Assembly (NCBI GenBank): GCA_907163375.1
Contig: CAJQUW010005236.1
Span: 464,922-528,921 of the forward strand
Direction of reading: 5' to 3'
Source: Prostheceraeus crozeri
Lineage: Eukaryota > Platyhelminthes > Polycladida > Euryleptidae
DNA: 64,000 nt
Shown here: positions 32,267 to 49,751 of the stretch, piece by piece
Position numbering within the stretch: the first letter of the stretch is position 1
Layout of the letters: each line of letters opens with the position of its first letter
Made by a program: the position numbers and the translations under genes
Notes under the pieces: model-generated
The model's database searches: none
What the model was told of the DNA's origin: nothing
The model's input: the letters and a program-made list of their open reading frames with translations, nothing else

Positions 32267-32348
32267 CCCAAGAAACAGCTCCAGCGGGCGAATGAAGGCT
32301 CGGATTGGTAAACGGAGGCCAGATTTGGAATCAGCTTGATGTTATTGT

Positions 32349-32396
32349 CCAATGAGGATCATCATCCAATGAGAATCAAGCATTTCTATATAAATA
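32349..32396 (+). promoter_or_regulatory. CCAAT-CCAAT-TATA promoter of the left Polinton gene
   Basis: CCAAT boxes at 32349-32353 and 32366-32370 (17 bp apart, both followed by GAG) precede TATATAAATA at 32387-32396, 108 bp before the ATG at 32495. The polymerase B gene has the same layout on the opposite strand. Confidence 0.75.
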
Positions 32397-32494
32397 GCGA
32401 GCCTTCCACAGTGAGAATCATTCCATCGTTGAATCACACGAGTGACGGACGCACATTTTCTCTCTCTAGTTCCCTATTCTATTATCCAACTAAA

Positions 32495-33269
32495 ATGGTA
32501 AGTCGCTACTTTCCTCCCTCTCCTCCCTTGAACGTAAACTTAATACAATCTTTTTCATTTTCAGGCATCTACTCCATCTGCTGCACTAGTAGGACAAAAT
32601 GGCGGTCAAACGTTACAAGGTTCGCTACGATCAGATCATCTACAACTGAGGCCAGTGGAAGAAACATCCAAGGTACATAATCCTACACCGCTACAGCGTA
32701 AATTTAAACAAGTCTTGCGTTATGACGATCATGGCGTAGTACTCCAAACGGGAATGCTCCTTTCCACGGATGTCAAGATAATGCACAATCAGTATGGGGA
32801 CTACATACTGATCCCCGTGAGTCCGTACATTCGCCACCAACTTGATATTATTGAGGAGTACGTGACATTAAATATGGACATTCCTACTCCTCTTGCTCAA
32901 GAGTGGAAGGCGAGAGATGACAAGGATACTCCCTATAGAAAGATTTGGGATGGTAATCAAATTTGCCTACCGGTATCACATTGGTGCACTTACTATAAGA
33001 AGGAGGGAGATCATTCAGCACCCATCACATGCGACGAGCTCGGAGAAGGTACTTGGGATATCCTTTTCAAAGTGAATGGGCTATATTATGGTCGACACAA
33101 GGATAATAAAATAGCCTCTCTCTCCATGCATATGGAATCCATCCTATATATTCCAAAACCACCCAACGTGGACGACATAATTGATCAAATCCTTAACAGC
33201 AGTGGTACGAAGCGCAAGTCGGACAAGAATGCTGCATCAAAACGCATATCAAAGAAGGAGAATTACTAG
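32495..33269 (+). CDS. Polinton left-end protein, possible OB-fold DNA-binding; intron after the start codon
   Basis: Exon 1 is only the ATG (32495-32497). A 67-bp intron (32498-32564, GTAAGT to TTTTCAG) follows. Exon 2 starts GCATCTACT and runs in frame to TAG 33267-33269, 235 residues in all. The body alternates short strands and turns (GMLLSTDVKIMHNQYGDYI, then GTWDILFKVNGLYYGRH and SLSMHMESILYI) and ends in a lysine/arginine-rich tail. The strand pattern, the glycine-aromatic motif and the basic tail suggest a single-strand DNA-binding OB fold; this is inference. No exact family is recognised. Its position next to the terminal repeat would suit a replication accessory protein. Confidence 0.75.
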
Positions 33270-33303
33270 TCCTTTCCTAACTCTACCCTATGACAATTCG
33301 CTT

Positions 33304-33429
33304 ATGTGCTTTGAGTGTCGTAGACGTGGTCTTATTAGATACATTTTACTTCTTCGTTGCCATCATATCATTTGTGTATTTTGTCGTGAAAAGCATCGAT
33401 GTAATTCTTCATTTTGTAATATGTTATAG
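33304..33429 (+). CDS. mini RING-like zinc finger protein 1 (41 aa)
   Basis: The frame starts at ATG 33304 directly before the first cysteine: CFEC, 13 residues, then RCHHIICVFC and a further two cysteines (RCNSSFC). The C-x2-C, C-H-x3-C-x2-C and C-x4-C order resembles a RING or treble-clef finger. A very similar layout recurs at 34670. An overlapping hydrophobic frame from ATG 33290 competes, and the segment could also be intronic for the exonuclease-like gene. Confidence 0.4.
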   Translation: MCFECRRRGLIRYILLLRCHHIICVFCREKHRCNSSFCNML

Positions 33430-33463
33430 AACGTTTCCTTAGATGTGTAAATTTCCGTTTTAG

Positions 33464-34012
33464 GCTTCTATCATCATTTTTATGGATTGTGAGGGTGAAC
33501 CTGTACAGGGGCTCAGTGCTATTGCTATGAACAATTGGACATATCAGATTGTCAGTGTCTATCATCAACATGCCAACTGCAATCCCAATGTTGATCAATG
33601 GGCGAGAAAACACATTCATGGACTTAATCTGAAATATTTGCAAGACTATGGCTTTTCTTGTGAGAGTGCTCTTCTTATTGACTTTAAACGATGGTTAGCT
33701 GCTTTCAATGTTATACGCATCTTTTGTAATAATCCTGGTAAGGAGAGGAAAATATTTCCCAATCTAATCATTGATGATATTTTGCTCCCACCTTGGGATA
33801 GTAGAGTGGATCAACATTATCATGAAGTCACGAAACGTTTTAAGGATTTGTCTGTTCCTATTTTGTCTGTTCGTTGTAGTAGCTACGTTCATAACCAATG
33901 CTTCTTTCCTCCTTACCTCAACACTGCCAAAGTCCTGTATGGTTATCATTGCTCGCTGTATGATAGTTACCAGCTGTATCTATTTTATCTCTTTCAAACC
34001 ATTGATTTATAA
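33464..34012 (+). CDS. DEDDh-type 3'-5' exonuclease-like protein
   Basis: The open frame has an ATG at 33482, but the hydrophobic strand that precedes the catalytic Asp in this fold (ASIIIFMDCEG) reaches back to 33464, right after an acceptor TTTCCGTTTTAG. Motifs: DCEG (Exo I, D-x-E), KHIHGLNLKYL (the conserved HG), CNNPGKERKIF at the Exo II position (Glu where Asp is usual), and YHCSLYDSYQLYL (Exo III, H-x4-D). About 180 residues is normal for a single exonuclease domain. The Exo II change may affect activity. It ends at TAA and is followed by AATAAA near 34038. It may proofread for or degrade DNA during replication. Confidence 0.6.
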   Translation, partial: ASIIIFMDCEGEPVQGLSAIAMNNWTYQIVSVYHQHANCNPNVDQWARKHIHGLNLKYLQDYGFSCESALLIDFKRWLAAFNVIRIFCNNPGKERKIFPNLIIDDILLPPWDSRVDQHYHEVTKRFKDLSVPILSVRCSSYVHNQCFFPPYLNTAKVLYGYHCSLYDSYQLYLFYLFQTIDL

Positions 34013-34100
34013 TGCATGCTTGTTACTTACTATTATTTAATAAATGTTACTATGAGAAGAGTTGTTTTCATGCAATGGATGGGTTAGATAAAGGGCGATC

Positions 34101-34511
34101 ATGTCTTTTTCAAACGACTGCGGAACATTACATTTTCATAGGCAAAGTTTAAAAGGAGCTGTTCAAGATTATGTGATAAATTTTCATAAAGATGAGACCG
34201 ACATCGAAGCAGTGGTCGATGATGCTAGCACTCTATTTCTAGAGTTAATGAATACATTCTCTGATAGCATTGTCATGGCGCGATTAGTTGCGAAAATTAA
34301 GTTTAGTCATTTTGGAAAGGAAGAGGTGGAAAGTCGCTCTTTCCATTTTGCTTCTTATTCAATGGAAGTGGTAGATCACCCCGAAGAATTTTTTAAAAGA
34401 CATATGATAAAAATTGCTGAACGTCTTAACGCATTTAACCATCATGGTAGCAGTCTAGTGATTGAAGCGATTTCAGATATTCACATTCAACTTTCCATAA
34501 AGAAAAATTGA
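34101..34511 (+). CDS. stand-alone paralogue of the polymerase B N-terminal domain
   Basis: The 136-residue protein contains SRSFHFASYSMEVVDHPEEF, ERLNAFNHHGSSLVIEAI and a terminal IHIQLS. The polymerase B N-terminal region of this same element carries the equivalent order: FHVPSSSATEVVD, a long helix with VDKFNQRDSALIFDGV, and IFKISLL. The two are clearly homologous, so this is a free copy of that domain. The family occurs at the N-terminus of many Polinton polymerases; its function is not known to me. It may compete with or assist polymerase loading. Confidence 0.65.
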   Translation: MSFSNDCGTLHFHRQSLKGAVQDYVINFHKDETDIEAVVDDASTLFLELMNTFSDSIVMARLVAKIKFSHFGKEEVESRSFHFASYSMEVVDHPEEFFKRHMIKIAERLNAFNHHGSSLVIEAISDIHIQLSIKKN

Positions 34512-34669
34512 AAATGCAGTGGTACTTGATTGTAGCACAACTGGTTTTCGAGCTATGTCTGCTCACTCTCGAAGTACATTCCTTCTGTACATGCGTCTAT
34601 TATTTAGAAAAGGCTAGCAAATTCATATCTTCAAAAAGACTTGCTATAGACATCAGTAACGGTGAAACT

Positions 34670-34816
34670 ATGTGTTGTGATGTATGTAAGCGCATCTTCA
34701 AGAGATGTAAGCACGCTTTTTGTCAACGCTGTTTCATACGTAATTGCATTCAACTTTGAAAATGTAACCACTGTGATATTGCTCATTTCGAGTGTCACTT
34801 ATGTCGCAATAGTTAG
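34670..34816 (+). pseudogene. mini RING-like zinc finger protein 2, interrupted by an in-frame TGA
   Basis: From ATG 34670: CCDVC, then RCKHAFCQRC and an additional Cys. TGA at 34757-34759 interrupts, and the same frame continues KCNHC...FECHLC to TAG 34814-34816. The first residues and the C-x-H-x2-C-x2-C core match protein 1 at 33304. The last C-x2-C pair needed for a complete RING lies after the TGA. The open frame also extends upstream to ATG 34514 with a hydrophobic leader, which could be the true start. Confidence 0.4.
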
Positions 34817-34867
34817 TACCTATGCAAATGTGGTAAAGATAGGTTTTAGCAAAGACTAACACGGAAA

Positions 34868-35233
34868 ATGGCGAAACGTAAAATGGCGAAACGTAAAAGT
34901 CAAAAGTCTTCAAAGTTTTCTTCAGCCATTCAAGCTCTCCGACGAATGAAAGCAAATCAGCGATACAATGCTATACGACATGCCAACGATAAATTCATTC
35001 GTGAAATTATTTCTCATGTCAGAAAGTTGAGGACGAAGAAATTAGCTCCAAAACAACGAAAGTTACTTAAGCGATATGCCACAAAATTGCGTTTCATCTC
35101 CAATCCTAAAGTCACCCTTCAAAGAAAGAGGAAAACTCTAACACAAAAGGGTGGTTTCCTTTCAGCAATACTTCCAATGATAGCTCCTGCCGTGGGCAAC
35201 CTATTGGGTAATATCTTTGGCTCTAAGCGTTAA
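34868..35233 (+). CDS. small basic Polinton virion-type protein with C-terminal hydrophobic segment
   Basis: The protein has 121 residues: a strongly basic N-terminal two thirds (MAKRKMAKRK..., KQRKLLKRY, LQRKRKTL), then TQKGG and a glycine/proline-containing hydrophobic stretch FLSAILPMIAPAVGNLLGNI. Basic segment, GG, then amphipathic or hydrophobic helix resembles adenovirus-type core and membrane-lytic precursor proteins. QKGG|F fits the general adenain cleavage pattern (x-x-G-G|x). This suggests processing by the element's protease, as inference. It lies 31 bp before the ATPase start. Confidence 0.7.
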   Translation: MAKRKMAKRKSQKSSKFSSAIQALRRMKANQRYNAIRHANDKFIREIISHVRKLRTKKLAPKQRKLLKRYATKLRFISNPKVTLQRKRKTLTQKGGFLSAILPMIAPAVGNLLGNIFGSKR

Positions 35234-35264
35234 TTATGCAAATGTTGAATCTCAAAGTATTAAA

Positions 35265-35882
35265 ATGGATTTCAGACTTCAATGTGATAAAGTTCTGACT
35301 GTATCAGGTCCATCTCATGCAGGTAAAACTGTTTTCACGCTGAATTTATTGGATAAAAGAAGGGAGTTGTTTAAGGAACCTATCAATCGAGTGATTTGGT
35401 CTTATGGTATTTATCAACCGTCACTGTTTCAGGAATTGCAAAGTCGCAACTTTATTCGACATGAAGGAATTATTGCAGTGGATAAACTTCAGTCTAATGA
35501 TGTTGTTGTATTGGATGATTTATTAAAAGAAAGTAAGAATTCAAAAGATGTTACAGATATGTTCACTCGTGCAGCACACCATAAAAGGTGTTTTATCATC
35601 TATATTACACAAAATTTGTTTCCTGATGGAAAAGAAGCTCGTACACGAAACCTGAATACACACTATTATGCTATTTTCAAGAATCCGCGAGATAAAAGTC
35701 AATTTGAAATTTTAGCGCGACAAGTTGCACCCAGAGGATCAAAAGCCTTAATTGAAATTTTTCAAGCAGCTACTGAAAAACCATACGGTTACTTATTCAT
35801 TGACTTTACGCAAGAGTGTCCGGAAGAATTTAGATTTCGAAGTGATATTTTGAAAACTCCCATGATTATCTACAAACTATGA
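35265..35882 (+). CDS. ATP: Polinton genome-packaging ATPase (FtsK/HerA, A32-like)
   Basis: The 205-residue protein has Walker A GPSHAGKT near residues 15-22 and Walker B DVVVLDDLL near residues 80-88. It also has an arginine-containing segment (FTRAAHHKRCFIIYITQNLF) whose Gln-Asn acts as sensor in this family. The size is standard for Polinton and virophage ATPases, which pump DNA into preformed capsids. I chose ATG 35265; the upstream in-frame extension begins only with TTG. Its stop overlaps the next gene's ATG by four bases (ATGA). Confidence 0.93.
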   Translation: MDFRLQCDKVLTVSGPSHAGKTVFTLNLLDKRRELFKEPINRVIWSYGIYQPSLFQELQSRNFIRHEGIIAVDKLQSNDVVVLDDLLKESKNSKDVTDMFTRAAHHKRCFIIYITQNLFPDGKEARTRNLNTHYYAIFKNPRDKSQFEILARQVAPRGSKALIEIFQAATEKPYGYLFIDFTQECPEEFRFRSDILKTPMIIYKL

Positions 35883-36577
35883 GTTCTTATTCTCGCATGA
35901 TTGTTATTCCTCAGGATGAATATGTACAATTGACTGCCATGCAGCAAGTAAAGCAACCTCTTGCAAATCAAATGTATAGAAAAGAAATAGATTATCAGCA
36001 AAATGTTCACATCAAAGATCCACATCGTGCTGTATTATTACAATCGGAAACTGTTGAGCAATTGAAAAACTTGAAGAATAAGATGCGTGACTCTGTATCG
36101 ACTGCTACACCTTTAGCATCTCGCGCACATGCCATATCTCTTTTCAACAGTATTGAACCCCATCTCAATGTAAATGATAGAGGAGAAATCATTACAGATG
36201 AAAATAAAGTGATTGATGCTTCACGTTATGAAGACTTGATTCAGTATGCGACACGTAGAAAGCGCCGTCAGGGCTATGTTCCACCTGGTTGGTCATACTT
36301 TCTTAAACTATTGAAAAAGCATAATGTGCCAAAATTTGCTTTGAATAATGAGACATTGAAAGAACTTGATTCAACAGTGGCTACTGCTCCAATGCTTCAG
36401 ACGATGAAAATGCCAACAAATTGGTTTAAGACGTCACCTGCTACATCCCCTCCCACACTCACTAAGCAAACAAGAGGAAGAACTCGACGTAGATCTACAT
36501 CACCACTAAAACTAAAACTAGTAAAAGGAAAACGTAAAACAGCTCCTCCCAGGAAATACATGTTCTCAGACTATTAA
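35879..36577 (+). CDS. conserved Polinton protein of unknown function, basic C-terminus
   Basis: The 232-residue protein is translationally coupled to the ATPase (ATGA overlap). It has an MIVIPQDEY N-terminus, a helical middle (VEQLKNLKNKMRDSVS), then YEDLIQYATRRKRRQGYVPP, GWSYFLKLLKKHNVP and a lysine/arginine-rich tail (GRTRRRSTSPLKLKL, KGKRKTAPPRK). Proteins of this pattern accompany the ATPase in many Polintons, but I know no demonstrated role. The basic tail suggests DNA contact, possibly in packaging. Confidence 0.7.
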   Translation: MSSYSRMIVIPQDEYVQLTAMQQVKQPLANQMYRKEIDYQQNVHIKDPHRAVLLQSETVEQLKNLKNKMRDSVSTATPLASRAHAISLFNSIEPHLNVNDRGEIITDENKVIDASRYEDLIQYATRRKRRQGYVPPGWSYFLKLLKKHNVPKFALNNETLKELDSTVATAPMLQTMKMPTNWFKTSPATSPPTLTKQTRGRTRRRSTSPLKLKLVKGKRKTAPPRKYMFSDY

Positions 36578-36578
36578 T

Positions 36579-36794
36579 ATGAAGCAGATGTGTTGCTTGC
36601 CATGTAATGAGCCGCCAGAGGTGAATGTCGTTGTCACTTGCACTTGCTGCGCCAGCTCTCACAATGAAACCCCTAAGCAATGTGAACACGATCGCAAAAC
36701 CGCTAAAGCTAAATGCTGCAGTTGTTGTAAATGTAGAAAGGAAAGAAAACAAAAAGATGAGAAGGAGAAAAAAGAGTCAGTCGTCATCGACTGA
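36579..36794 (+). CDS. small cysteine-rich protein overlapping the integrase start
   Basis: ATG 36579 follows the previous stop by one base. The 71 residues include MCCLPCNEPPEV, TCTCCASSH and KAKCCSCCKCRKER with a lysine/glutamate tail, twelve cysteines in all. Spacing suggests metal binding. It overlaps the integrase N-terminal frame. Starting the integrase at its internal ATG 36757 leaves an overlap of only 38 bp, which I prefer. Confidence 0.5.
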   Translation: MKQMCCLPCNEPPEVNVVVTCTCCASSHNETPKQCEHDRKTAKAKCCSCCKCRKERKQKDEKEKKESVVID

Positions 36795-37845
36795 ACGTTT
36801 GAAGTCAATCTATTATGATGTAAAACATCCGGCAGGATTTGCATCTATCAAGAAATTATCAAAAGCGAGTGGGCTTCCACAATCACAAGTGAAACGATGG
36901 TTAAAGGGTCAGGCTACCTATACACTCCACAAACAAGCGAAAAAGAAGTACCGCACCCGCCATTATATTGTTCATGACATCGATGAACAGTGGCAAGCAG
37001 ATTTGTGTGATGTTGCCTCCATTTCAAAACATAACTCGGGCAATAATTTTATTTTAACCGTCATTGATATTTTCTCGCGTTATGCGTGGGCTCAACCTTT
37101 AAAAACTAAAGAAGGGAAAGGAGTAGCAAAAGCATTCCAAACAATTTTTCGAGAAGGCCGCATTCCAAAAAGAATTCAGAATGATCAAGGAAAAGAGTTT
37201 GAAAATCAGCATGTGAGGAGATTATTTGAGAGGCATGACATTGAGTTGTTTAGTGTAAAGAGTGCTTATAAAGCTGCACTCGTTGAACGTTTTAATCGCA
37301 CATTAAAAAATCGCTTGTGGCGACATTTTACTGCCAACTTGACACAAAATTGGACAAAGGTTCTACAAGATACACTCCATGCCTACAATCACTCTATCCA
37401 TCGTTCTATTGGACTCAGACCAGTAGATGTAAATGCTGACAATGTAGATAAAGTGCGCGAATCATTCCAACGTAAACGCAATCATGTGAAAAGTGATGTG
37501 AAAATTGGTGATAAAGTTCGTATCTCAAAAGTGAAGAGTGTTTTTGCTAAAGGGTACCTTCCGAGTTGGACAGAGGAGGTATTTACAGTATCAAGGATTA
37601 ATCAAAAAGACTCTCCCACCACCTACAAGTTGAAAGATCACGATAATGAAGAAATTGAGGGTAGCTTTTACCGCGATGAGATTGAGGTAGTCACTGAAAG
37701 TGAAACATATATGGTAGAGAAAATCATTCGATGTAAAAAACGGCAAGGTGAAGAATCGTGTCTTGTTAAATGGACTGGTTATCCTTCAAGTATGAACTCT
37801 TGGATGCGTCGTGCCGACATCTTTCATCTAAGTGATCGACAGTGA
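36757..37845 (+). CDS. INT: Polinton integrase (retroviral type) with C-terminal chromodomain
   Basis: The open frame begins at 36625, but I prefer ATG 36757 (MRRRKK), giving 362 residues. An N-terminal helix-turn-helix (SIKKLSKASGLPQSQVKRWL) leads into the catalytic core: first Asp in WQADLCDV (about residue 82), second in IQNDQGKEF (143), Glu in ALVERFNRTLKNRLW (177). There is a gap of 33 residues between the last two. The C-terminus has an SH3-like barrel (KIGDKVRISKV) and a chromodomain (YMVEKIIRCK, CLVKWTGYPSSMNSW, residues about 317-356). The chromodomain probably guides insertion by binding chromatin marks. It inserts the element and makes the 6-bp duplication. The frame is intact. Confidence 0.95.
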   Translation: MRRRKKSQSSSTERLKSIYYDVKHPAGFASIKKLSKASGLPQSQVKRWLKGQATYTLHKQAKKKYRTRHYIVHDIDEQWQADLCDVASISKHNSGNNFILTVIDIFSRYAWAQPLKTKEGKGVAKAFQTIFREGRIPKRIQNDQGKEFENQHVRRLFERHDIELFSVKSAYKAALVERFNRTLKNRLWRHFTANLTQNWTKVLQDTLHAYNHSIHRSIGLRPVDVNADNVDKVRESFQRKRNHVKSDVKIGDKVRISKVKSVFAKGYLPSWTEEVFTVSRINQKDSPTTYKLKDHDNEEIEGSFYRDEIEVVTESETYMVEKIIRCKKRQGEESCLVKWTGYPSSMNSWMRRADIFHLSDRQ

Positions 37846-37886
37846 TTCATGCAAAGTTGTAACTAACAATGTTTAGGGTTTGAGCT

Positions 37887-38342
37887 ATGAATCCAACTGC
37901 CTCATTTTATTCACGACCCTCCTATGTAAGTGGTGGAGGACAAATTTACATCGGCGCTCGCCGCCAACGTGGAGGTAGCATACTTCGTGCACTGAAATCT
38001 GTTGTAGCACCTCTCATATCCAATGTCGGTAGATCTTTAAAACGAAATGTTTTAAGTAATACCGTTGGCTTTGCTGGTGATGTTGCTAGTGATCTTTCCA
38101 GAGGTAGAAGTTTTAAGAGCAGTTTGTTGAATCGTGGGAAGGAACGCGGTTTGAAAACATTGAAGCAGACCATTGCTGGTGTTACTCAAGGAAAGAATTC
38201 ACATAAACGAATGAAAAAAGGAAGGAGGAAACATCGCGGAGCTGGTAAGGTGCGATCTTCAGTCAAAGGGCATTCACGCAAACGTCGCAGAGGCTCTAAT
38301 CATTCATCAGGCGCTAAACGACGACGCTGCCATAACTTCTAA
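37887..38342 (+). CDS. basic Polinton virion-type protein (pVI/core-like)
   Basis: The 151-residue protein has a short glycine/tyrosine N-terminus (YVSGGGQIYIGARRQ), then RQRGG followed by an amphipathic segment SILRALKSVVAPLISNVGRS. Next come a helical AGDVASDLSRGRSFKSSLL region and an arginine/lysine-rich tail ending RRCHNF. RGG|S resembles an adenain-type processing site, and the amphipathic helix after it resembles membrane-active capsid-interior proteins. It sits three bases before the capsid gene, the usual place for such proteins in Polintons. Role inferred. Confidence 0.7.
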   Translation: MNPTASFYSRPSYVSGGGQIYIGARRQRGGSILRALKSVVAPLISNVGRSLKRNVLSNTVGFAGDVASDLSRGRSFKSSLLNRGKERGLKTLKQTIAGVTQGKNSHKRMKKGRRKHRGAGKVRSSVKGHSRKRRRGSNHSSGAKRRRCHNF

Positions 38343-38344
38343 TT

Positions 38345-39620
38345 ATGGAGTGTAAATCTTCCGGGTTTTGTTTGTTTGATCAACAAGCCATACAGACAGA
38401 TATTCTTAGTTCAAGTATTGTAGATTATCATCCTCGAACAGCTGAGAATGCTGGCCCCATTGAATTTGTTATTCCTGGTGGTAGTGATGACTACATAGAT
38501 TTGAGTTATGCGATGCTTGATTTGAGGTTTAGAATTCAGCAAGCAGATGGAACTGCTATTGACGATGCACATAAAGTAGGACTGAACAGTTTACCATTGA
38601 CTACATTACTTCGCGATGTTTCTTTAACGATTGGAGAGCAGCAGGTGGAAGGTGGTCAAAGCGATTATCCCTATAAATCATATTTCAATCATGTATCACA
38701 GTTTCATCCAGCAGCACAAAAGTCATATGGAAGCCATGGGATGGTACAGAGATGAAGCAGGAAAATTTGATGTTGAAACAAACAGTGGCTTTGTAAAGCG
38801 ATCTGCTATGATTAAAGATAGTAGAGTATGTCAGCTATATGGTCCGCTGAATTTAGACTTCTTTAGACAGTCAAAGTTTTTACTGTGTAATACCAGCATG
38901 CGACTCAAGCTGACATTGAATAAGCCTGAATTTGCGCTGAATGCATTTGCTAAAGTTGACAATTTTAGAATTCATGTGGAAGATATTGCACTTTACATTC
39001 GTCGAGTAGTACAGAATCCAAGTGTCATTAGAGGGCATGCTGAAGGTCTTAACCGCCAAAATGCCATTTACCCCGTTCAGCATACAAAGCTTCTCACCTT
39101 TACAATTCCGAAAGATCAAAAGAGTTTCATGAAAGATGGCCTCTTTCCATCGGAAGCACCGAAGCTCCTCATGGTGGCAATGGTTGAAAATGATGCATTT
39201 AATGGTAATATAAAGAAGAATCCTTTCAATTTTAAACACAATCAGTTAAGTGAAATTGCTTTACGTGTAAATGGTGTGAGTCATCCTGGTCCACCCTACA
39301 AACCAGATTTTGCTGCGGATCAATTTATGCGCAGTTATGTTGATTTTATGGATGTCTTTAGCTTTTACAATACGGATGACAGCAACGGACTGACTATGAA
39401 AGAGTTTAAGAGTGGATATACTATTTATGCATTTGATTTGACTGCTGACAGCGATATTAGTGCACCCTATCGTCAAGCGAACGTGCCTCATAATATTCGT
39501 TTGGATTTGACGTTCAAAAGAACACTACCTGAGACGATCAATGTATTAATTTATGCAGTCTTCGATTCAATTATTGAAATTACAAAGTATCGTGACGTGA
39601 TTCTTCAGTATAATCGTTAA
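38345..39620 (+). pseudogene. MCP: Polinton major capsid protein (double jelly-roll), one frameshift
   Basis: The first part (38345 to about 38720) has DYHPRTAENAGPIEFVIPGG and DDYIDLSYAMLDLRFRI, the hallmark start of Polinton capsid proteins, and LTTLLRDVSLTIG. The second part continues one frame over with EAMGWYRDEAGKFD, NLDFFRQSKFLLCN, LIYAVFDSIIEITKYRDVIL and TAA 39618-39620. The switch lies at or near the A run 38718-38721 and is consistent with one extra base. Without it the protein would be about 425 residues, normal for the family. Either a real lesion, a consensus error or, less likely, frameshifting. The capsid forms hexon-like trimers. Confidence 0.9.
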
Positions 39621-40081
39621 TGCGTTGGTTGACTGCTGACGATATTAAGACTAAAGTGCAGCGTAATGCAGACGAAGCGACGTTGAAAGCTTTCGATAAT
39701 GTCTATTAACTCGATACCTTACCACCTGCAGTAAATCACTATCCCATCTTTATTGTGCTAAACACTCATTCGCAGAATTTAGGTGGTGAGCATTGGAAAG
39801 CGATCTTTATTGGAGAAGACCGACGTGGTGAACTATTTGACTCTCTTGCTCAACCTCCAAATATACCAACACAGCAGTGGTTGAGAAAACATACGCGTCA
39901 ATATCAGCGAAATGAACGCACACTACAACATCCACTTTCATCAACGTGTGGTGCTTTTGTACTGTACTTCATCTTAAAACGTTTACATGTATCTCGATTT
40001 GTATCTGTTATTCAAAACTTTTCATGTAATCCATCCTCTAATGAAAAAATGATTTGTAAGTTCTATCATGATTTGAAATAA
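39620..40081 (+). pseudogene. PRO: Polinton cysteine protease (adenain/Ulp1-like), one in-frame stop
   Basis: ATG 39620 overlaps the capsid stop. After 29 codons TAA 39707-39709 interrupts. The same frame then stays open to TAA 40079-40081. The catalytic His is in GGEHWKAIF, the acidic residue in GELFDSLA and the Cys in HPLSSTCGAFVLYF, with the family spacing. The N-terminal W-L-T-x-x-D-I start is also typical. The length of about 153 codons suits Polinton proteases, which mature capsid proteins. Downstream of the stop no ATG precedes the catalytic His. Confidence 0.88.
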
Positions 40082-40108
40082 AAACATGATGTTGGAAAAA
40101 ATTGTTTT

Positions 40109-40975
40109 TTATTTTACAATCCACTGGGTGCGTACATACTCGATGAGATAGTCTAGGATCACATTTGCTTGTACGTGAGATTTTAGTCCAGTAATGATCA
40201 CTTTACTATTATGAAAGATTGCCACATGCACAGGTAACCAACAACTAATGAGAGCTGCAGGAAAAAGTTCGGGTTCATAACACAAATTGTAACTGCTGGT
40301 ACGAATCTTCAAAAATGATACACTTTCACTCAATTGAGTAGAGATCACCATATTGTCCACAGTCAGATTCGACATCACACACCTCTCCCTCTTCCATATC
40401 CGACGTAGTAGTCTCTGTAGCTCTAAGCGCATTGACTGCGCCGATGAATGAGAAAGGGCGCCGAGAATCCGTACAGTCCCATTTGGGAAGAGTTGAAGAT
40501 TCCGTAAATTGTTCATCTTCACCACTAACATTTGAGGACGGCCGGGGTAATACTTGCTGTTTGGAAGGTGTTGGTGTAATGTTGTGAGATCGATTTTGGT
40601 GTAGAGTCTGAAGCGGCGGAGAATGTTGACGATGGTGTAGCGATGGCGCTTCATGATGAAAGAATGAGTAAATTGAGCGATGTACCTTCCTTTTATACTT
40701 TTCCCAACTACCTTGATGAAATGTGAAGTTAGTATGAAGTTGGGAATGATAGAGTTGAATTCGCCGTTGTTGACGCGCAGCCAGATGCGATTTCCAATAC
40801 GTGAATGTCTTTTCATATAGACGTATTTCAAATCCTTCATGATATGATGTAGAGATTGAAAATGACGATAAGATAAAGCAAACTCTCTTCTCACATTTCC
40901 AGTTGAATCTTTGAAATAGACGTTTCGATCATGATCCGTTTCAATACGTTGTAGGGAATCTAATTTCCAACTCAT
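40109..40975 (-). CDS. TATA-binding-protein-like protein with N-terminal PC4-like domain
   Basis: The 288-residue intact frame starts at ATG 40975. Residues 1-108 match the neighbour 40998-41354 (W-x-LxSLQxI, D-x-x-x-NVxFK, IMxDL, then a helix ending SIM or SFIM). The LS-x-x-x-F-x-x-L helix recalls coactivator PC4. Residues 112-190 form a first TBP-like repeat (TIVNILRRFRLYTKIDLTTL, YYPGRP, QLFPNGTVRILGALS) and 204-285 a second (VDNMVISTQLSESVSFLKI, YEPELFPAALI, VAIFHNSKVIITGLKSHVQA). YEPELFP, F-x-S/N-x-K-V-x-x-TG and the two-fold repeat are signatures of TBP. The first repeat is more diverged. It converges on the protease gene with overlapping AATAAA signals. A role in transcribing the element is inferred. 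Confidence 0.85.
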   Translation of the reverse strand: MSWKLDSLQRIETDHDRNVYFKDSTGNVRREFALSYRHFQSLHHIMKDLKYVYMKRHSRIGNRIWLRVNNGEFNSIIPNFILTSHFIKVVGKSIKGRYIAQFTHSFIMKRHRYTIVNILRRFRLYTKIDLTTLHQHLPNSKYYPGRPQMLVVKMNNLRNLQLFPNGTVRILGALSHSSAQSMRLELQRLLRRIWKRERCVMSNLTVDNMVISTQLSESVSFLKIRTSSYNLCYEPELFPAALISCWLPVHVAIFHNSKVIITGLKSHVQANVILDYLIEYVRTQWIVK

Positions 40976-40997
40976 GGTGTGTGGTAGTCATGTCTGA

Positions 40998-41354
40998 TTA
41001 AGATTTGCATAGTAGGGCGATGAACTCACGACGAATAAATGTCATGATGGAGCGATGTATGTATCTTCTATACTTCTCCCAATTGTATTTGCGAAATGAG
41101 AAACAGTTTGCGGAATGAGAATGGCAGATTTGAATTTCATTGTTGCGACGTTGAAGCCAAACTTGATCACCCAAGGAGATGAATCTTAATGTTTCAAAAT
41201 ATTCCAAATCCCTCATGATATCATTGAGGTTGACAAATTGTCGCCATGTTAATGTAATACCTCTTGATGTATGACCATGAGAATTTTTGAAATGTACGTT
41301 TCCATCACGATCAACTCTGATATATTGTAGAGAGTGCAAAATCCAAGTCTTCAT
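40998..41354 (-). CDS. PC4-like protein, paralogue of the TBP fusion's N-terminal domain
   Basis: The 118-residue protein starts at ATG 41354 (MKTWILHSL). Units: ILHSLQYIRVDRDGNVHFK, RGITLTWRQFVNLNDIMRDL, then GDQVWLQRRNNEIQICHS, FSFRKYNWEKYRRYIHRSIM. Each half reads as three strands and a helix, like a PC4 fold used twice. RGITLTWRQFxxLxxIMxDL resembles the KGISL-x-x-x-QW-x-x-L segment of PC4. It aligns along its full length with residues 1-112 of the TBP fusion, stopping where the TBP part begins. Only 22 bp separate the genes. The PC4 assignment is tentative; the paralogy is clear. Confidence 0.65.
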   Translation of the reverse strand: MKTWILHSLQYIRVDRDGNVHFKNSHGHTSRGITLTWRQFVNLNDIMRDLEYFETLRFISLGDQVWLQRRNNEIQICHSHSANCFSFRKYNWEKYRRYIHRSIMTFIRREFIALLCKS

Positions 41355-41389
41355 GATGTTATGCAAAGTCGCAGATCAGCAATATAAAA

Positions 41390-42787
41390 ATGTCGTTTTA
41401 TCATATTTTGCTTAGCAATGCGGCTACAAAGAGATTTGCTAGTAATCGAGCCGCACTCTTTTCTACTCCCATTGATCATACACAACAGCTAAATGGAAAG
41501 TGGGAAGTGGGTGTCACTCAACTTGTTTATAGCAACTGTGTCTATACTTTTGATCATGAGGTGATGACTATTAATATGAGACGCACAGCTGCTTACCAAT
41601 GTGAAAAGGGGTGCCGAGTATACATTCCACAGTGGGCAAAGAAAGATCTCTTATCATGTAAAAAGTTTATATATGATTTCTTGAATAAAGCGTGTTAACA
41701 TATTGCCCAATTTACTCCGCACAATGATGATCATAATTATGTACATCATGTAGTTGAGAAAGATTGGATTGTTGGTTTAAGTCCAAGTTTAAGAAATGAT
41801 TTAGGTTACCTCGCTAGCGCCTTAACAAGCTATGATAATTTTAATGTTAATTACCACATAAGTGGTCATAAACAGTTAATATATCGAGAGGAAGCTTATT
41901 ATGTAGATCTTATTCCAAGAAATGAGAAGACGTTGGTGAAGAAGATTGTGATTAAGCCAAGAAAGACAAACATGACTCCTGAAACATTATTGAAGAAATT
42001 TAATTATCTCCTTCGAGTTGATGGTAAACAAGTGGCAACATTGACTTATATCAAATCATCTAATCATATTGCAATAAGTAAATTAAATGATGATGATCTA
42101 GTATTAGTTTGTTCAAAAGATTTTCATCAGTTCTTACGACATCGTTCTGCAGCTGTTCATGGAAAATCTGATATGCAACATTTACCATGTGAAAGGTCAA
42201 ATCAATTTGATACAGAATGGACCGTATCTTTATACAGAAAGTGTGTAGAGCCTTTCGGTGGTATCTTACATGAAACAAGAGTGTTGATGCCTCGCATTAT
42301 TACTTCGGTTAAATTGGTTGCAGATTATTTAAATGAAGTGATTAATGAGCAACATATTTCATTTTCTGAAAAAGAAGGTGTTTTGTCTCTCACTATAAGT
42401 GGAAAAGGTATTGAACTAATTATGGATAAAACTCTAATGGACATTTTGGGTTTTGACCAAAATATCTTTAAAAGTGGTACTGTAACCAAAGCTAGCGCAG
42501 ACATGTCGCTATCGCGTCGTATTAACTATTTTCAGATATATTCCAATATTGGTGAAGATGTACGTGTGGGAGATGTTGAAGCTCCATTGCTAGCAATGAT
42601 ACCATACCAGCCAAAAAGCTGCAGTATTTTATCTGAGCATACTTTCAAGAAAGTGCATTATACAAAGCTGAAATCAAACTACATCCCACAAATTGATATT
42701 GCCATTTATGACGATGCTGGTGCGTTGATTCCTTTTCATAAAGATGCTGTGACAAGTATCACACTCCATTGCCGAATGAAGAGTTAA
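41390..42787 (+). pseudogene. Polinton structural-type protein A, one in-frame stop
   Basis: ATG 41390 opens a frame that is readable to TAA 42785-42787 (about 465 codons) except for a single TAA at 41696-41698. N-terminus: FYHILLSNAATKRF, LNGKWEVGVTQLVYSN. C-terminus: YSNIGEDVRVGDVEAPLLAM, YIPQIDIAIYDDAGALIPF, SITLHCRM. The same plan is found in the next gene, so the two are tandem paralogues. Proteins with this LPSN...G-x-WEVG start and YSNI...VGD...LL end recur in Polintons between capsid and polymerase. They may be virion surface or fibre components, but that is inference. Confidence 0.75.
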
Positions 42788-42796
42788 TGCAAAAGT

Positions 42797-44347
42797 ATGC
42801 TAATATATTTTTCCAATGTGAATAATATGGAAAGTGAAAATAAGGACTCGTTTCTAATCTACTTGCCCAGTAATGCTTCTATGAATAAATTTCCCAAAAA
42901 TAAACCATCAGACTATCGAGTAGAATTAAATCGCCCACTACATTTAGAAGGTGAATGGGAGGTTGGCGTTTCTAGTATTTGCTATGATAGCAATATTCAG
43001 AATGTGAATGATTTGGAAGAAATGATATTGACTCCTCGCACCCATGATGGAATAACGATGAATAATGCATTCCAGTTCCCATACAATTTAACATCAGATG
43101 GAAAGTGGAACTATGAATGGATTCAGATAAAATCAGATTCTTATGAACCATTTGGGAATGAGAAAATTATTAAGGCATTCAATAGTGGTAATACTTCCAT
43201 CATGAAGAATAAAAATCAGAAAGCTTATGAGTTTACTATCTATCATTGGAGTGGGAGACAGTTCCTTCGCTTTCATTCTTTTACTAAAGGTCCTACGCTG
43301 AGGTTGGATAATGAATTCTATCCACATCTTGGTTTTGGTCATGGATTACATCTTACGTCAATTGCTACTGCAAATGTTAAAAAAGTTTATTCAAATCGAA
43401 TCAACAAATTTCATTATAGATTTAAAATATTTGATGAAGATGTTGTAGAATGCGAAGAACGCATCATTTTGAAAAAGCGTGGTGTTCAACCTTTGTCACT
43501 TATTGAGTTAGTAAAACGATGGAATGAGACTGTGGGTAAGAAGTATGGAGAGAAAATTATGGCGGACAAAAATAAGTTGGGTATTCAGAAATATAATGAC
43601 AAACTTACAGTTTATTTCTCTCCAACCTTGCGTCATTTTGTAAGACATTATACACCTATTATTGGAAGCGGTCTGGTGTATGCTTCTCATGAATATCACA
43701 CTAAAGCTGATTCAGTTAATGATGAATGGTGGGTGGACATCTATGGTGATCGCATCAAGAAAATTTACCAGTCTTATGAAGAATCTAAAGTTGCTATCAA
43801 TATAATGCCGCGTCTATATCATACAGTTGAAAGCTTCATTCATGTAGTAAATCCTTATATACAACAGAAGTTGAAGCATGTGATGAAAAGTAAATATGAT
43901 GTAAAGACACACCACATTTCGTTTTCAATTGAAAATCAACGCGTTGTTCTGAAACTGGGCGATGACATTCAATGTCAATTGAGTAAAAATTTGAAAAAAC
44001 TCTTTGGTTTTTCAATGCTACAAACTGTGTTTGCTGCTGCGCATACGATTGGTATAGAAACACCAATGACACTTGATAAACATGAACAGCACCTTTACAT
44101 TCAAAGTGATTTGATTCTTCCTATTTCTGTTGGCGAGAAAAAAGAATACATTTTACGCGATTTCATTCATGATAAAGACGCTTCATATGGAATAGTCGAG
44201 AAGATGTTTGAATCTATTTTCTATCATCCCGTCGTCAAACAAACTATACCCTCTATTGCTATCAAAATTACCAATGGTTTACAAGAGTGCATCCATGTGA
44301 AAGATACTAAATCCCTCGTAACTTTAGTGTTTCGGAAAACAAAGTGA
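42797..44347 (+). CDS. Polinton structural-type protein B (paralogue of A), intact
   Basis: The 516-residue frame starts at ATG 42797, with an alternative ATG at 42827 that gives a start closer to its paralogue. N-terminus: FLIYLPSNASMNKFPKN, LEGEWEVGVSSICYDSN. Middle: two beta-rich blocks (KAYEFTIYHWSGRQFLRFHS, YFSPTLRHFVRHYTP). C-terminus: HLYIQSDLILPISVGEKKEY, IPSIAIKITNGLQECI, LVTLVFRK. It follows gene A by nine bases and ends before an AATAAA at about 44370. Role unknown; probably a virion protein. Confidence 0.75.
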   Translation: MLIYFSNVNNMESENKDSFLIYLPSNASMNKFPKNKPSDYRVELNRPLHLEGEWEVGVSSICYDSNIQNVNDLEEMILTPRTHDGITMNNAFQFPYNLTSDGKWNYEWIQIKSDSYEPFGNEKIIKAFNSGNTSIMKNKNQKAYEFTIYHWSGRQFLRFHSFTKGPTLRLDNEFYPHLGFGHGLHLTSIATANVKKVYSNRINKFHYRFKIFDEDVVECEERIILKKRGVQPLSLIELVKRWNETVGKKYGEKIMADKNKLGIQKYNDKLTVYFSPTLRHFVRHYTPIIGSGLVYASHEYHTKADSVNDEWWVDIYGDRIKKIYQSYEESKVAINIMPRLYHTVESFIHVVNPYIQQKLKHVMKSKYDVKTHHISFSIENQRVVLKLGDDIQCQLSKNLKKLFGFSMLQTVFAAAHTIGIETPMTLDKHEQHLYIQSDLILPISVGEKKEYILRDFIHDKDASYGIVEKMFESIFYHPVVKQTIPSIAIKITNGLQECIHVKDTKSLVTLVFRKTK

Positions 44348-44708
44348 AGTCATTGTGATATGTTTATTGAAATAAAAATATGTATATGAAAAAGTCTTTT
44401 CACAGATATAGGGGAATGAGCTGACTGTAGGCATATATTCACAAGGAAGAAACGATCTCATGCGATACATAAAACAACCATGTATATCGACAAAAAGCAA
44501 CATCAAAATACTGAGTTAAAGTTGATTATGTCAATACATCTCCTGAATGTGGTAGCGTGAGTTTTATTCTTTTGGGTGGAGGTATGTTTGTGTCAGGATG
44601 CCCATGTGGAAGAGATGTGTTATGTCCTATCCAACACCTCTTATCTTCCCATGCTGAAAGCGCTCGTTTCTTGAAAGTGTGCGTTTTCACAGTATGAACT
44701 TGAGATTT
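44348..44708. terminator. convergent 3' region between gene B and polymerase B
   Basis: AATAAA on the plus strand near 44370 serves gene B. On the minus strand an AATAAAAC near 44571 could serve polymerase B. No gene seen. Confidence 0.5.
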
Positions 44709-47700
44709 TTAGATTGTCATATTGACAAACGTTATAGTTTTATTTTTATAGGCCTTCTTATAGGACCGATGTTTCATTTTGTGAACAATGGATTTTGATA
44801 TACCTTTAGCACGCTTAATACTATCTGCACATTCTTTTAATTTCATGGAATACATTTTAGGACGGAGGAGAATCATTTCATCTATTTCCTTTCCTGCTGT
44901 TTCATCCTTAAAACAACCAAGTTTGGCCTTATTCTGTATGGAATAGAGTGGATGAGTGGGATTTTAGTTAGATGTGTCGAAATATTTTTCTAATGACTTA
45001 CCTACTTCATTAAAATTTAAATCTTTTTGAGTGGTAATTCCTAAAAAGAAACTATCTGTATCACCACCCAGCAAGCGAACCTCTTTTACGAGAGGGCATG
45101 GTTTTAATATTTTGTAGAAGAGTTGATACATTTCAAGCTTGGAATAATCTAAAACGGCTTGCCCAATATAGATGGGTTTGCACAACTCAACTTCAGATTT
45201 TATCATTTTAACACCTACAAGATCCTCATCGATGATGTCTCTATCAATGAAAGAGGTGATGAGGTCAATTTGTGATATTTTTGTTCATCAACGACTAGTT
45301 TGTAGTTCATACGTTTTCTAACATCCTCCATGGTCTTTCCGAAAAGACTGTTATTCTTATATTTACAAAAATCCTTTTCAAAATTATTTTGGGCGAGTGC
45401 ACGTTTTTGACTGTTACTATCTATGTAAGGTTTGAGGAAGGCTTTCTGTCTAAATTTGATAATGCGGTGAACTGACTTTAGAAGCATGCCCATTTCTAAA
45501 TAGAATTTCAGTATGCAGAAGTGTACGAGATAATTTTTCTTATCATATTGGGTGAGTAAAAGTTTGCGGCATGGTTTGTACCTTGGCTGTCCACACTCTG
45601 TTAAGTTATTATAAAATTGTGACATGAATGGTGAAAACATATCTTCAGTCACTTCACCAGATTCAGGTGCGAGTGGGAAATCAGCAGTTTTATTTTTAAT
45701 GCTATTTGGATAAATCAAATCCACTTCAAAATAATATCCCCAATCACCTTCATCTGGAATCTTCAGTATGTTTGAAGGGTTGGAGTAATACTCAAGCTCA
45801 TCTTGATTTAACCAACTAAACTCGGAATGAGGTAGTGGTTTAGACAGTGAACTGCCATATAAATTATTTTGGTCATAGTACTTTAGGTGGATATGATCAT
45901 CACCTACTGTTTCAGATTTTATATGATGTTTATTTACAAATGTGAGACCACCGCGTATTCCGCGCTCAAATATATTATACATCTCCGGGTCTTGTAAGAG
46001 ATGAATGGTCTCACCAGTCATTTTAAAGGCTGATTTAAAGGACATGGCTGGTAGACTGACAAAGTGGACAGGATCTAATTTGTCTTCTTCTAATGCCACT
46101 CGTCGAAATTCCTGAAAGACATCAGCCAGCAAAATGACATCTAATTCTAAGTAAGCGATCATATAATCGCCAAACGTTTTACAATCAAATTTTAACCATG
46201 CCTCTTGAGCATGTTCAAAATCTTCTACTGGACAATCTTTACCCATCAAATCGTTTTGGAATTTGTCAATGGAAGGAAGGGTTGTTTCATTTAGTTTAGA
46301 CATTGAGCTAAAATACGCATAAGGAAAGACTCCTTTGCGAGTGATTATTTCATCCGTTAAGTTTGGATAGTGTTTCTTCAAAGTTTGACTATGGGGAAGA
46401 AACTTGAGATTACGAGCGAGAGAAGCTAGTGACGCTGACATGAATTGGAATGAATCTAAAAATTTTATTTCGAAGAAGACTGTCTTATTTTCTTTAGTTT
46501 TATCTACTGGTACTTTTGCTGTCATTGCCATGAATTTTTCTCTCGTTTGCGCTATTACATTAAACTGCCACGATTTCATCTGGCTCAACCCTCCTTTTAT
46601 GAGCATATGATTGTCATAGCCCTTAAAGTTATGAAAAATGACGGGTAGTACACGACGTCTCAACCTAAGTGGAAAGTTACATTTGGAGCAGAGTGCGTTT
46701 CTAAATTTACCAGTGATGTGATCATGATCACGCACTTTCTTAATTTTATCGTCATCAAACGTTTTATGACATTTAGGGCACGATGTCCAACTTTCAAATT
46801 TTTGTTTGTCTTCATCGGACATATGTAGTGACTTACGCTGCAATTGGGAATCATATGATTGTTGAAATTTAGCAGCTTTATCGAGAAATTCTAGAAATTT
46901 TGAAATGCAATCTTCACCTTGCCAAGTATGCATTTTGTTTTGTCTATTCCTAAAGTGGTCATGCCATACTTCATAGCAGGATATGGCTGCTGGCTTGTGG
47001 ATTATATCATCAATGTAGCATTCTATGTCTGCGTAAATGACACGCAAGGGACTTAATTCGTCACCATTATCCCTATGTGAAAATATTTTATCTTTGGGCA
47101 TGCTTGCACCATTCATAGTGAGTTTCAAATTTATCTTTACTCCAAAAGGAGCGGATGCAGCGGTCGCATACAAAATGTTCACCTCTTTTAGAGTGCCCCA
47201 AGTGAGAGTACAAGCGAGAGATTTTGGGTATACCACAGTAGTGCCATTCCTCGCTATCATCTTGTTTTACTAATAAGAGGTTGACTACACGTTCATAACA
47301 AGTTGAACGTGAATTATAGCGGGCACCCTTCAACCCCTTCTCCCACACGTGAACGACAATTTTAATCTTATTATGTTTTTCGAACGTTTCTACATCTTTG
47401 ATTTTCATGTTGTTACTATCACAACCTTCAAAGTCTAGTTCATCCTCCCACTGTCTATAGCTATAGGTATGATTTCGATTCGCGTTGATATCATTATATT
47501 GAAGGATGGATAGGACTGCATATTTGAAACACTGTGATTTACAATCGACATTGATGACAGCTTTCTTATTATACAACGTTTTTGGTAGTTTAAATGTACC
47601 TTGAGCTGCATGACTTTCTAATAGTGAAATTTTGAATATGGCTGAGTCCACACCATCAAAAATGAGAGCGCTGTCGCGTTGATTGAATTTATCTACATTT

Positions 47701-48475
47701 GATTTTAAACATTGAATGTGAAAATTTAGCCAAGACTCGCAGTCTACAACTTCGGTTGCGGAAGAGGAAGGAACATGAAACTGTATTCTCTCCGTCACTT
47801 GACCCGTTTGAAAATCTATCTTAATATATTTTAGTTTAAGGTAGATGAGCGCCTTCATTCTAAAATTGTCTAAATTGTTGAAGAGCGCTTCGATAATGTT
47901 AGAATTTTGAAGGAGCCACTCAGGAAAGCTACTATTTGAGTATTGGACTCCATGCAGTAGTCGCGTACTAAATTATTATGTGAAACAATAATGAGGGAGA
48001 TGGTAGAGGTACCGTTGGTGTAGTGATCATTTGCATGCGTGTGTTGAAGTCTGTGCGAAGATCGCTGAAAGTGACTATCAAAAGAAAGAGGGCACAAATC
48101 GCAAGGAAAGGAGATGTCATCGTCAGAATCAACTTCACCTCCGGAGATTGACGCCGCTTTGCGTTGACACACACGTTGTTTGATGTATCGAAGGAGACTG
48201 TGCTTCATTGTAAACATATGTCCGCAGTCGGCACATTCCCACTCGTTGCCTTGTCGCGAGAGTCCTGAGCTGGAACTCACATCACCTGAAAGAGAAATCA
48301 CTCTATCATCTCTGTTCAAGTCTCAGTGTATTGTTACAACCTACTTTGACTCAACAACTCTAAACTTTCCTCGAGAAGGGAGGGCGTTGGTGATGAAGTT
48401 GATGCCTGAAATTGAGGAAGATGCTATTAGCCACACGTTTGAGGGAGATGAGTGAAGAAATTTTCAACTTACCAT
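44709..48475 (-). pseudogene. POLB: Polinton protein-primed DNA polymerase B, spliced 5' end, broken
   Basis: Exon 1 is ATG only (48473-48475), followed by a 67-bp intron (48406-48472), exon 2 (48345-48405), a 59-bp intron (48286-48344) and then a long exon from 48285. Order: C2H2-like zinc fingers (WECADCGHMF, FPCDLCPLSF), the N-terminal domain shared with 34101-34511, a C-x2-C zinc finger, Exo I YADIEC, a DHDHITGKFRNALC zinc motif, Exo II HNFKGYDNHM, YLELDVILLADVFQ, motif A YYDQNNLYG, motif B KNNSLFGKTMEDVRKR, motif C GGDTDSFFLGI. Breaks: frameshifts near 47950, 47095 and 45245, and TAA at 44964-44966, after which the conserved C-terminal RPKMYS part continues to 44709. Presumably inactive unless the breaks are sequence errors. 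Confidence 0.93.
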
Positions 48476-48628
48476 TTCAACGAAATCGAGTTTAAGGTTG
48501 ATACTTCAACAAGATAGAGACTTCACGAGAGAGCAGTTCACTTGTACGCCTCAAATATAGAATTCGCCAGAGAACACTTCACTTATATGTCACAAAGACA
48601 GAGTGAAATGACACGAATGTCACTTTAC

Positions 48629-48675
48629 ATATATACTTTCATATTCATCATTCATTGGCTGTTCATTCTTATTGG
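48629..48675 (-). promoter_or_regulatory. CCAAT-CCAAT-TATA promoter of polymerase B
   Basis: On the minus strand CCAAT boxes at 48671-48675 and 48654-48658 (17 bp apart) precede TATATAT at 48629-48635, 160 bp before the ATG at 48475. The spacing nearly copies the left-end promoter. The divergent plus-strand gene starts only about 60 bp away, so the boxes may serve both directions. Confidence 0.7.
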
Positions 48676-48732
48676 TTGCTTGTTGATACTTAAGAATTAG
48701 AAAAAATTTCAAAGTTATTATTCACAGTCAAC

Positions 48733-49179
48733 ATGACAAGCCCTCCGACAACACCAAACACAAAATTCTCTTCTCCATGCTCAACACCAAAGGCGCTCGT
48801 TGCACCAAACGCTCCAACGAAGGGGAAGGTAAAGAAGGTGTACCGACTGGACAATATCAGAAAGTTGTCATTACCAGCGGACGACGAAGAGAGTGTATGT
48901 GAGAAGGAGTGTCCCGACTTAACAGGCGTGAGGTGGAAGTATCTCCAATACGATACTGACGATGTGATGGAGATCACCAGCACCAAATTCCTCCACCAAT
49001 TATGGGAGTGGTACACCCCTAACTCCCAGCCACGAACTATGGCGGAGTGGGAGTATATCGACAAAGTGAGGCTCGCAGTGGAAGAACGATTAAAGCAAGT
49101 GAACTGTTTTTGTTACCTATGTGAAGCCAGACTCTGGGACGATATTGACGATGAAGACCTTTTGAAATACATGCCATAA
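48733..49179 (+). CDS. unrecognised acidic 148-residue Polinton protein
   Basis: ATG 48733 to TAA, overlapping an AATAAA. N-terminal 40 residues are proline/threonine/serine-rich (TSPPTTPNTKFSSPCSTPK). The rest is acidic and tryptophan-containing (GVRWKYLQYDTDDVMEI, FLHQLWEWYTP), with C-x-C-x2-C (NCFCYLCEARLWDD) and a DDEDLLKYMP end. No family recognised. It is divergent from polymerase B and may share its CCAAT boxes. An acidic tryptophan-rich protein with a C-terminal cysteine cluster could be regulatory. Confidence 0.6.
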   Translation: MTSPPTTPNTKFSSPCSTPKALVAPNAPTKGKVKKVYRLDNIRKLSLPADDEESVCEKECPDLTGVRWKYLQYDTDDVMEITSTKFLHQLWEWYTPNSQPRTMAEWEYIDKVRLAVEERLKQVNCFCYLCEARLWDDIDDEDLLKYMP

Positions 49180-49228
49180 TAAATTTTTATTTCGTATTAT
49201 CTTTGCTTTCATACTGACGTACTTGAAT

Positions 49229-49730: not shown

Positions 49731-49751
49731 AACTCATGGTTCTCATAACGT

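Follow-up and report, generated by a model that had tools for sequence, protein, structure and literature searches.

A TATA-box-binding protein homologue overlapping a second gene in Polinton-type elements of the flatworm Prostheceraeus crozeri

Cellular TBP (Pfam family PF00352) is the closest described relative of the protein that we report here, which is encoded by a Polinton-type element of Prostheceraeus crozeri. The two are alike in their two repeats, their saddle, the Asn, Phe and Thr contacts of the second repeat, the YEPELFP loop, and a size like that of the archaeal protein. The element protein differs in being encoded by a mobile element, in being just 20-26% identical to cellular TBPs, in having a Pro at the place of a first-repeat Phe and Gln, Gln and His at the places of Leu, Val and Val, and in its long branch in the tree. 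TRF2/TBPL1 is a TBP paralogue with altered Phe residues and non-TATA targets. Unlike the element protein, the TRF2-like protein of the host, a fragment on a long branch, groups in the tree with the cellular proteins.

Viruses also encode such proteins, and the genomes of the giant viruses and mirusviruses that have a TBP are large. These TBPs (described in passages of PMC10132985, PMC11464507 and PMC12085832) share with ours a viral type of coding, and several have the same predicted fold. According to the passages, the giant viruses of PMC11464507 and PMC12085832 encode TFIIB as well as TBP, whereas the element has a length of 22 kb and none of the genes recognized in it is a TFIIB or an RNA polymerase. 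The TBP-like proteins of herpesvirus late genes (EBV BcRF1, KSHV ORF24 and CMV UL87) go with a TATT box at the TATA position (passages of PMC4893493). They resemble our case, in which the box is A(T/A)GCAA, by pairing a viral kind of TBP with a box other than TATA at this position of a gene class. As stated in the same passages, they are about 10% identical to TBP (against 20-26% for the element protein), and six genes act in their case, while in the element an overlapping pair of TBP and a partner, gene A, is seen. Passages of PMC10675990 also place a TBP in mirus-like elements that are devoid of the capsid and polymerase genes of the Polinton-like viruses of that paper.

Virus-encoded TBPs, including those with non-TATA boxes, are already known from what these passages state (PMC4893493, PMC10132985), and it is the TBP in a Polinton that appears to be new. 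The initial annotation had known of no such case, and we found no description of one in searches of the open literature. The passages of PMC8097293, PMC11071308, PMC10120064, PMC12768974, PMC11071296 and PMC12220804, and those of PMC12721341, PMC7786948, PMC6401483 and PMC10558129, report no TBP in a Polinton.

The window (the whole stretch of 64,000 nucleotides that was analysed) contains the following features of the element.

31351..31356, target site duplication GACCAT, left; the identical six bases stand at the right side
31357..53808, Polinton-type element of 22,452 bp, with terminal inverted repeats, AGT...ACT ends, a 6-bp duplication and an integrase with chromodomain
35265..35882, plus strand, putative packaging ATPase, from its position and a P-loop seen by eye (weak Pfam matches below cut-off, AAA_14 0.016 and Pox_A32 0.017)
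36625..37845, plus strand, integrase (rve) with chromodomain (PF00665 8.5e-10, PF00385 4e-7)
38345..39620, plus strand, putative major capsid gene, named by position only, in two frames here (the L059 homologue is one 426-aa frame)
39755..40081, plus strand, putative Ulp1/adenain-type (C48-type) cysteine protease, partial (PF02902 8.1e-4, just below cut-off)
40109..40654, minus strand, TBP-like gene, 181 aa and stop, ATG at 40654 (PF00352, AlphaFold, Foldseek, VIA-align)
40326..40975, minus strand, gene A, predicted PUR/Whirly-like domain with a disordered acidic tail, frame interrupted here, overlapping TBP by 329 nt
40998..41354, minus strand, gene B, 118 aa, which repeats the PUR-like domain but has no tail (aligns to the folded domain of gene A; 40% identity to P0009)
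45215..48319, minus strand, family B polymerase-like gene, split into several frames (motifs by eye)
53809..53814, target site duplication GACCAT, right, read from the sequence

Polintons were defined by AGT-ended terminal inverted repeats and a target duplication of 6 bp (passages of PMC8097293). Judged from its sequence, the element is of Polinton type, and the claim that the TBP sits in a Polinton was borne out by the terminal inverted repeats, the AGT ends, the 6-bp duplication and the rve integrase. The termini are AGTAGTAAGC...GCTTACTACT, and the near-identical inverted repeats are about 400 nt long; inside them, at 31414-31553 and 53674-53759, are short C-run-rich direct repeats, which pair in several registers when the two ends are compared. 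The polymerase motifs DQNNLYG, KNNxLFGKTMED and DTDS (DTDS in relatives) were recognized by eye, and no polymerase profile of Pfam, PHROGs or NCBIfam matched in the pieces searched from the window and L059. The same three collections gave no match for the capsid-type gene. A polymerase-like frame at 45215-47260 (minus strand) contains an Endonuclease VII-like stretch at residues 153-196 (PF02945 8.8e-7), and the right part of the element carries a 419-aa frame with a coiled-coil-like look (50696-51955, minus strand). Elsewhere in the window, at 7372-11547, lies a second element with perfectly complementary inverted repeats of 402 nt, 3.4 kb apart, and frames resembling reverse transcriptase, including one that carries YLDD.

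L059 (contig C12605) represents a second Polinton family of this genome, with the homologous genes in open frames (PF00665 1.4e-13; PF02902 7.1e-5, over the cut-off), and a third, Polinton-like family (L061, L062) contains frames for TBP, for gene A and for a polymerase-like protein. The search for TBP in other Polintons was thus positive: TBP is present in all three families, each time beside the overlapping gene A.

The initial annotation had read a two-repeat TBP into the end of a 288-aa open reading frame. Pfam PF00352 matched residues 108-288 of this frame in two stretches (E=5.5e-19, 68.2 bits against a curated cut-off of 22.9), so that both the homology and the two repeats were upheld by the profile search, and the L059 copy scored 83.1 bits (1.2e-23). 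Ten TATA-box-binding models of NCBIfam also matched, the best at 1.3e-18, all far under their own cut-offs. The proposed structure prediction agreed with the saddle fold, since the AlphaFold model is a two-fold saddle with a pLDDT of 92.5 and Foldseek hits 1-44 are all TBPs; VIA-align of the predicted model also returned the TBP saddle. From profile and model, it is near certain that the gene product is a two-repeat TBP homologue. The frame of 288 aa did not stand as the gene. The natural TBP is 181 aa long, many homologues have their first residue at or near its start Met, and the longer frame is a fusion specific to this copy. Ten short proteins of 89-90 aa, about half a TBP (P0098, P0101, P0102, P0104, P0107, P0108, P0111, P0112, P0118 and P0119), are 62-74% identical to the window and are single repeats or fragments.

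Gene A is open in the window at 40326-40928 in the frame that overlaps TBP. Its relatives P0005, P0009 and P0123-P0126 are separate proteins of 215-222 aa, and its tail, in the other frame, spans about the first 100 TBP codons and ends in SIE or TIE. Seven sequences gave a predicted fold of (four strands, helix) x 2, which VIA-align showed to be PUR/Whirly-like; Foldseek alone found no significant match for the model, and nine members matched no PUR, Whirly or PC4 family of Pfam at E<=10. Gene A is therefore predicted, from these models, to have a PUR/Whirly-type fold, and the closest known systems are PUR-alpha repeats I-II, MRP1/2, Whirly and PC4. The first 70 or so residues of the public protein P0005 (JGI, longest contig 10,296 bp) are 99% identical to the gene A part of the window, so this element or a closely similar one has also been sequenced elsewhere.

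We examined the DNA-contact face in an alignment with yeast numbering. From 127 proteins, 7 of gene A and 16 outside 155-260 aa were removed, and the remaining 104, with the window and L059 copies, gave 106 family rows that were aligned with 23 cellular rows. The yeast residues concerned are ones that we take to contact the minor groove (F99, L114, V122, V203 and others) or TFIIB (E186 and E188). Three of the four intercalating phenylalanines, whose mapping had been suggested, are retained (F116 in 106/106, F190 in 105/106 and F207 in 106/106); the fourth, F99, is Pro in 103/106 family rows and in the window copy. L114 is Gln in 104/106, V122 is Gln in 105/106, and V203 is His in all 106. Among the cellular rows, F99, L114, V122 and V203 (Val/Leu) are retained in 20-22 of 23 (V203 in 21). 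N159 is kept in 105/106 family rows, T215 in 103/106 and N69 in 92/106 (13 gaps), and the position of T124 is Leu, Met, Phe or Ile. With three of the four intercalating phenylalanines, the element protein is, on its sequence, a TBP homologue and not a canonical TBP.

The loop that contacts TFIIB reads YEPELFP in the window; E186 is present in 103/106 rows, E188 in 106/106, L189 in 97/106 and P187 in 43/106. G-C pairs are disfavoured by the hydrophobic face of TBP, but the polar side chains found here on the DNA face could accommodate them. Since Gln, Gln and His are near-invariant (104, 105 and 106 of 106), they suggest a specific DNA target rather than a loss of binding. Position 62 (V122 in yeast) is Gln in all 55 other intact copies and in 105/106 rows but Arg in the window copy, and so this particular copy may not work.

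Upstream of the start codons, the following motifs were found in the window.

34070..34075, plus strand, promoter-like ATGCAA, at -31 of ATG 34101
34822..34828, plus strand, promoter-like ATGCAAA, at -46 of ATG 34868
35236..35242, plus strand, promoter-like ATGCAAA, at -29 of ATG 35265 (putative ATPase)
37849..37855, plus strand, promoter-like ATGCAAA, at -38 of ATG 37887
40689..40697, minus strand, TATAAAAGG, a canonical TATA box 43 nt 5' of the TBP ATG, within gene A
41004..41010, minus strand, promoter-like ATGCAAA, at -35 of the gene A ATG
41361..41367, plus strand, promoter-like ATGCAAA, at -29 of ATG 41390
42787..42793, plus strand, promoter-like ATGCAAA, at -40 of ATG 42827

We tested 13 starts in the window, which were of our choosing, and 9 in L059; from the window, 32754, 41972, the protease, the polymerase frames and the ORFs on the right-hand side were left out. 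A(T/A)GCAA stands 29-47 nt 5' of the ATG at 7 of 12 window starts other than TBP and at 6 of 8 in L059. Over all tested starts, it precedes 8 of 13 in the window, seven times as ATGCAA and once, at -59, as AAGCAA; in L059 the count is 6 of 9. The window starts without a box include those of the integrase, the capsid-type gene, 33482 and 35879, and gene B has just the AAGCAA at -59.

ATGCAAA occurs at 8 sites in the window element; 6 of them have a tested ATG of the same strand 29-46 nt downstream, where uniform placement predicts 0.08. AAGCAA occurs at 9 sites in L059, with 6 lying 33-47 nt before a tested start (0.16 expected). The motif was noticed post hoc, and both families belong to a single genome. 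Compared with random starts, the commonest hexamer at -25 to -60 gave P=0.0085 for the window and 0/2000 for L059. A looser control on 70 nt of upstream sequence was weaker: ATGCAA preceded 6 genes, and the null distribution had its 95th percentile at 5 and its maximum at 7. Among ORFs listed without choice, few more have the box beyond the tested set. Three genes bear the box at homologous places in both families (homology by eye). In the third family, where start codons are unsure, it precedes one fetched start only (L062).

The initial annotation had proposed TATA boxes upstream of the genes of the element. This did not hold except for TBP: TATAWAW at -25 to -60 is found at 1 of 13 window starts and 1 of 9 L059 starts, each time that of TBP, and most tested starts have A(T/A)GCAA instead. 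TATAAAAGG doubles as the code for a Tyr-Lys-Arg of gene A. It is identical in 54/54 matches with Tyr-Lys-Arg from three families, where synonymous codons could vary; most of these are near-identical copies, so that the effective number is about three.

The proposal that the element directs its own promoter recognition thus has indirect support in the retained TFIIB loop, the DNA face altered throughout the family and the non-TATA motif at TATA-box spacing. A length of 22 kb is too small for a full transcription machinery, and the element TBP would therefore have to work with that of the host. We lean slightly towards the view that an element-specific TBP, like the TATT-binding proteins of herpesviruses, draws TFIIB and Pol II of the host to a non-TATA promoter. 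After nuclear entry or activation of the element, host TBP would read TATAAAAGG within gene A, and the element TBP would be made. This protein, with a first repeat presumably no longer suited to TATA (Phe to Pro; Leu, Val and Val to Gln, Gln and His), would dock on the A(T/A)GCAA boxes that precede the other start codons by about 30-47 nt, bend the DNA, and bring in host TFIIB and Pol II through the YEPELFP loop. Gene A, with its acidic tail and a predicted fold of the ssDNA-binding PUR/Whirly type, would probably assist as a cofactor, for instance where promoter DNA has melted. The whole scheme is more tentative, and we place it a little on the doubtful side of even: a re-specified TBP overprinted on a PUR/Whirly-fold gene, with A(T/A)GCAA replacing TATA and its own gene switched on from a TATA box read by host TBP, would form a two-step cascade and a private promoter code.

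The retained TFIIB loop beside an altered DNA face would also fit a protein that acts on the host by occupying TFIIB, TBP partners or host promoters and so dampening or redirecting transcription of the host, with the boxes read by host factors such as POU proteins. ATGCAAAT matches or resembles the octamer that host POU factors read. We regard this as unlikely, because the box keeps TATA spacing in two families while the AAGCAA of L059 is not an octamer, and the near-invariant Gln, Gln and His suggest a specific DNA target and not a loss. Somewhat less likely still is a protein that kept the saddle, lost its promoter work and binds DNA in the service of replication or packaging, for instance at terminal repeats or protein-primed origins. 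A PUR/Whirly-like partner would be useful there if it binds ssDNA, a property suggested by the predicted fold only, but the conserved YEPELFP loop (E186 and E188 as given above) has no obvious use in replication. A promoter-recognition protein remains the reading that we prefer.

We also considered whether the full 288-aa frame is a functional protein, in which TBP would follow an N-terminal domain. The fused frame is matched along its length by at least 135 scored copies, and 116 of these are stop-free by our count. However, the fused protein was the query, so the ranking selects fused copies. In the window, a length difference of 1 nt joins the first part of gene A to the TBP frame, and the fusion substitutes for the second half of the PUR-like domain. 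The 36 fused loci (L009-L028 and L155-L170, again with the fused protein as query) differ in where the fusing indel lies or how long it is, with 17 variants as counted by us, neighbouring ones perhaps a single event. Both frames are open across the overlap, and many indels would therefore fuse gene A and TBP by chance. When copies were picked by another gene, 23/27 had no length difference from an unfused copy at the junction, and 21/28 copies picked by the capsid-type gene had gene A as its own full frame. Together with the homologues that begin at the TBP Met and the separate gene A proteins, these observations led us to reject the fusion as a functional unit and to consider it very improbable. 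The 288-aa frame of the window is a frame-fused copy of the TBP/gene A module and probably defective.

Across the overlap, the second frame runs without a stop for 108, 101 and 112 codons in the three families. Permutation of synonymous TBP codons gave such an open frame with P=0.0003, 0/3000 and 0.0007, and an even draw of synonymous codons with P=0.0023, 0.0077 and 0.0013. As the frame is open beyond the permutation expectation, the gene is overprinted.

Public sequence yielded 167 relatives of the TBP family, 120 of them among the matches listed. Scans of IMG/VR gave 28 pattern matches with the TBP family and 32 matches with the L059 capsid-type protein, with no relative among either. The 167 relatives presumably lie in Polintons. 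The phage collection had only two records, both of one haloarchaeal virus, at E=0.1.

In a tree of 76 rows, a branch with 100/100 support separates 44 family rows from 32 others, which are archaeal, eukaryotic (including host TBP and the TRF2-like fragment) and from IMG/VR, the last being the only rows for giant-virus TBPs; the total branch length is about 4.5. Two long branches, V_L070 and V_L072, join each other, and V_L068, which has an internal stop, was not included. The suggested phylogeny therefore gave a separate side for the family, on a very long branch of this unrooted tree, and did not place it inside the archaea or the eukaryotes. Judged from these sequences, the family looks old rather than recently captured. 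The host TRF2-like frame lies at 1297-1689 of L002, and host TBP exons at L001 and L003; a TRF2 gene points to an animal, and more narrowly a bilaterian, as host. The presence of these two genes would have allowed a recent capture of host TBP or a TBP-related gene without a special role, but the separation at 100/100 and the low identity to cellular TBPs make this the least probable reading of all.

In the genome of 2.05 Gb, at least 150 TBP matches were scored from 10,983 candidates, with the host TBP and TRF2-like exons counted in. The matches to the 288-aa frame, with the window counted in, are 88-100% identical, and the ranking favours stop-free copies in the count of 116/135 given above. 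With the capsid-type gene as DNA query, at least 40 matches were scored from 889 candidates, 39 of them at 97-100% identity, and TBP was open over 181 codons in 19/29 of the copies so picked (the window aside). The dN/dS of TBP in 56 intact copies, including the window, was 0.39 (bootstrap 0.31-0.51), with 0.35 for overlapping codons and 0.45 outside; in the 19 copies not chosen via TBP it was 0.39 (0.25-0.56) for overlap-free and 0.57 (0.27-0.77) for overlapping codons. Most loci were fetched by protein similarity, and because copies with stops were left out, these values are a modest sign of purifying selection on TBP.

These results place a TBP in an integrating element of 22 kb, against the giant viruses, mirusviruses and herpesviruses from which viral TBPs were known. 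The TBP/PUR-like overlapping pair would be a compact case of overprinted regulators. The near-invariant Gln, Gln and His and the lost Phe may amount to a natural experiment in the rewriting of TBP specificity, and the boxes to a testable promoter code, through which a mobile element would separate its own genes from host promoters.
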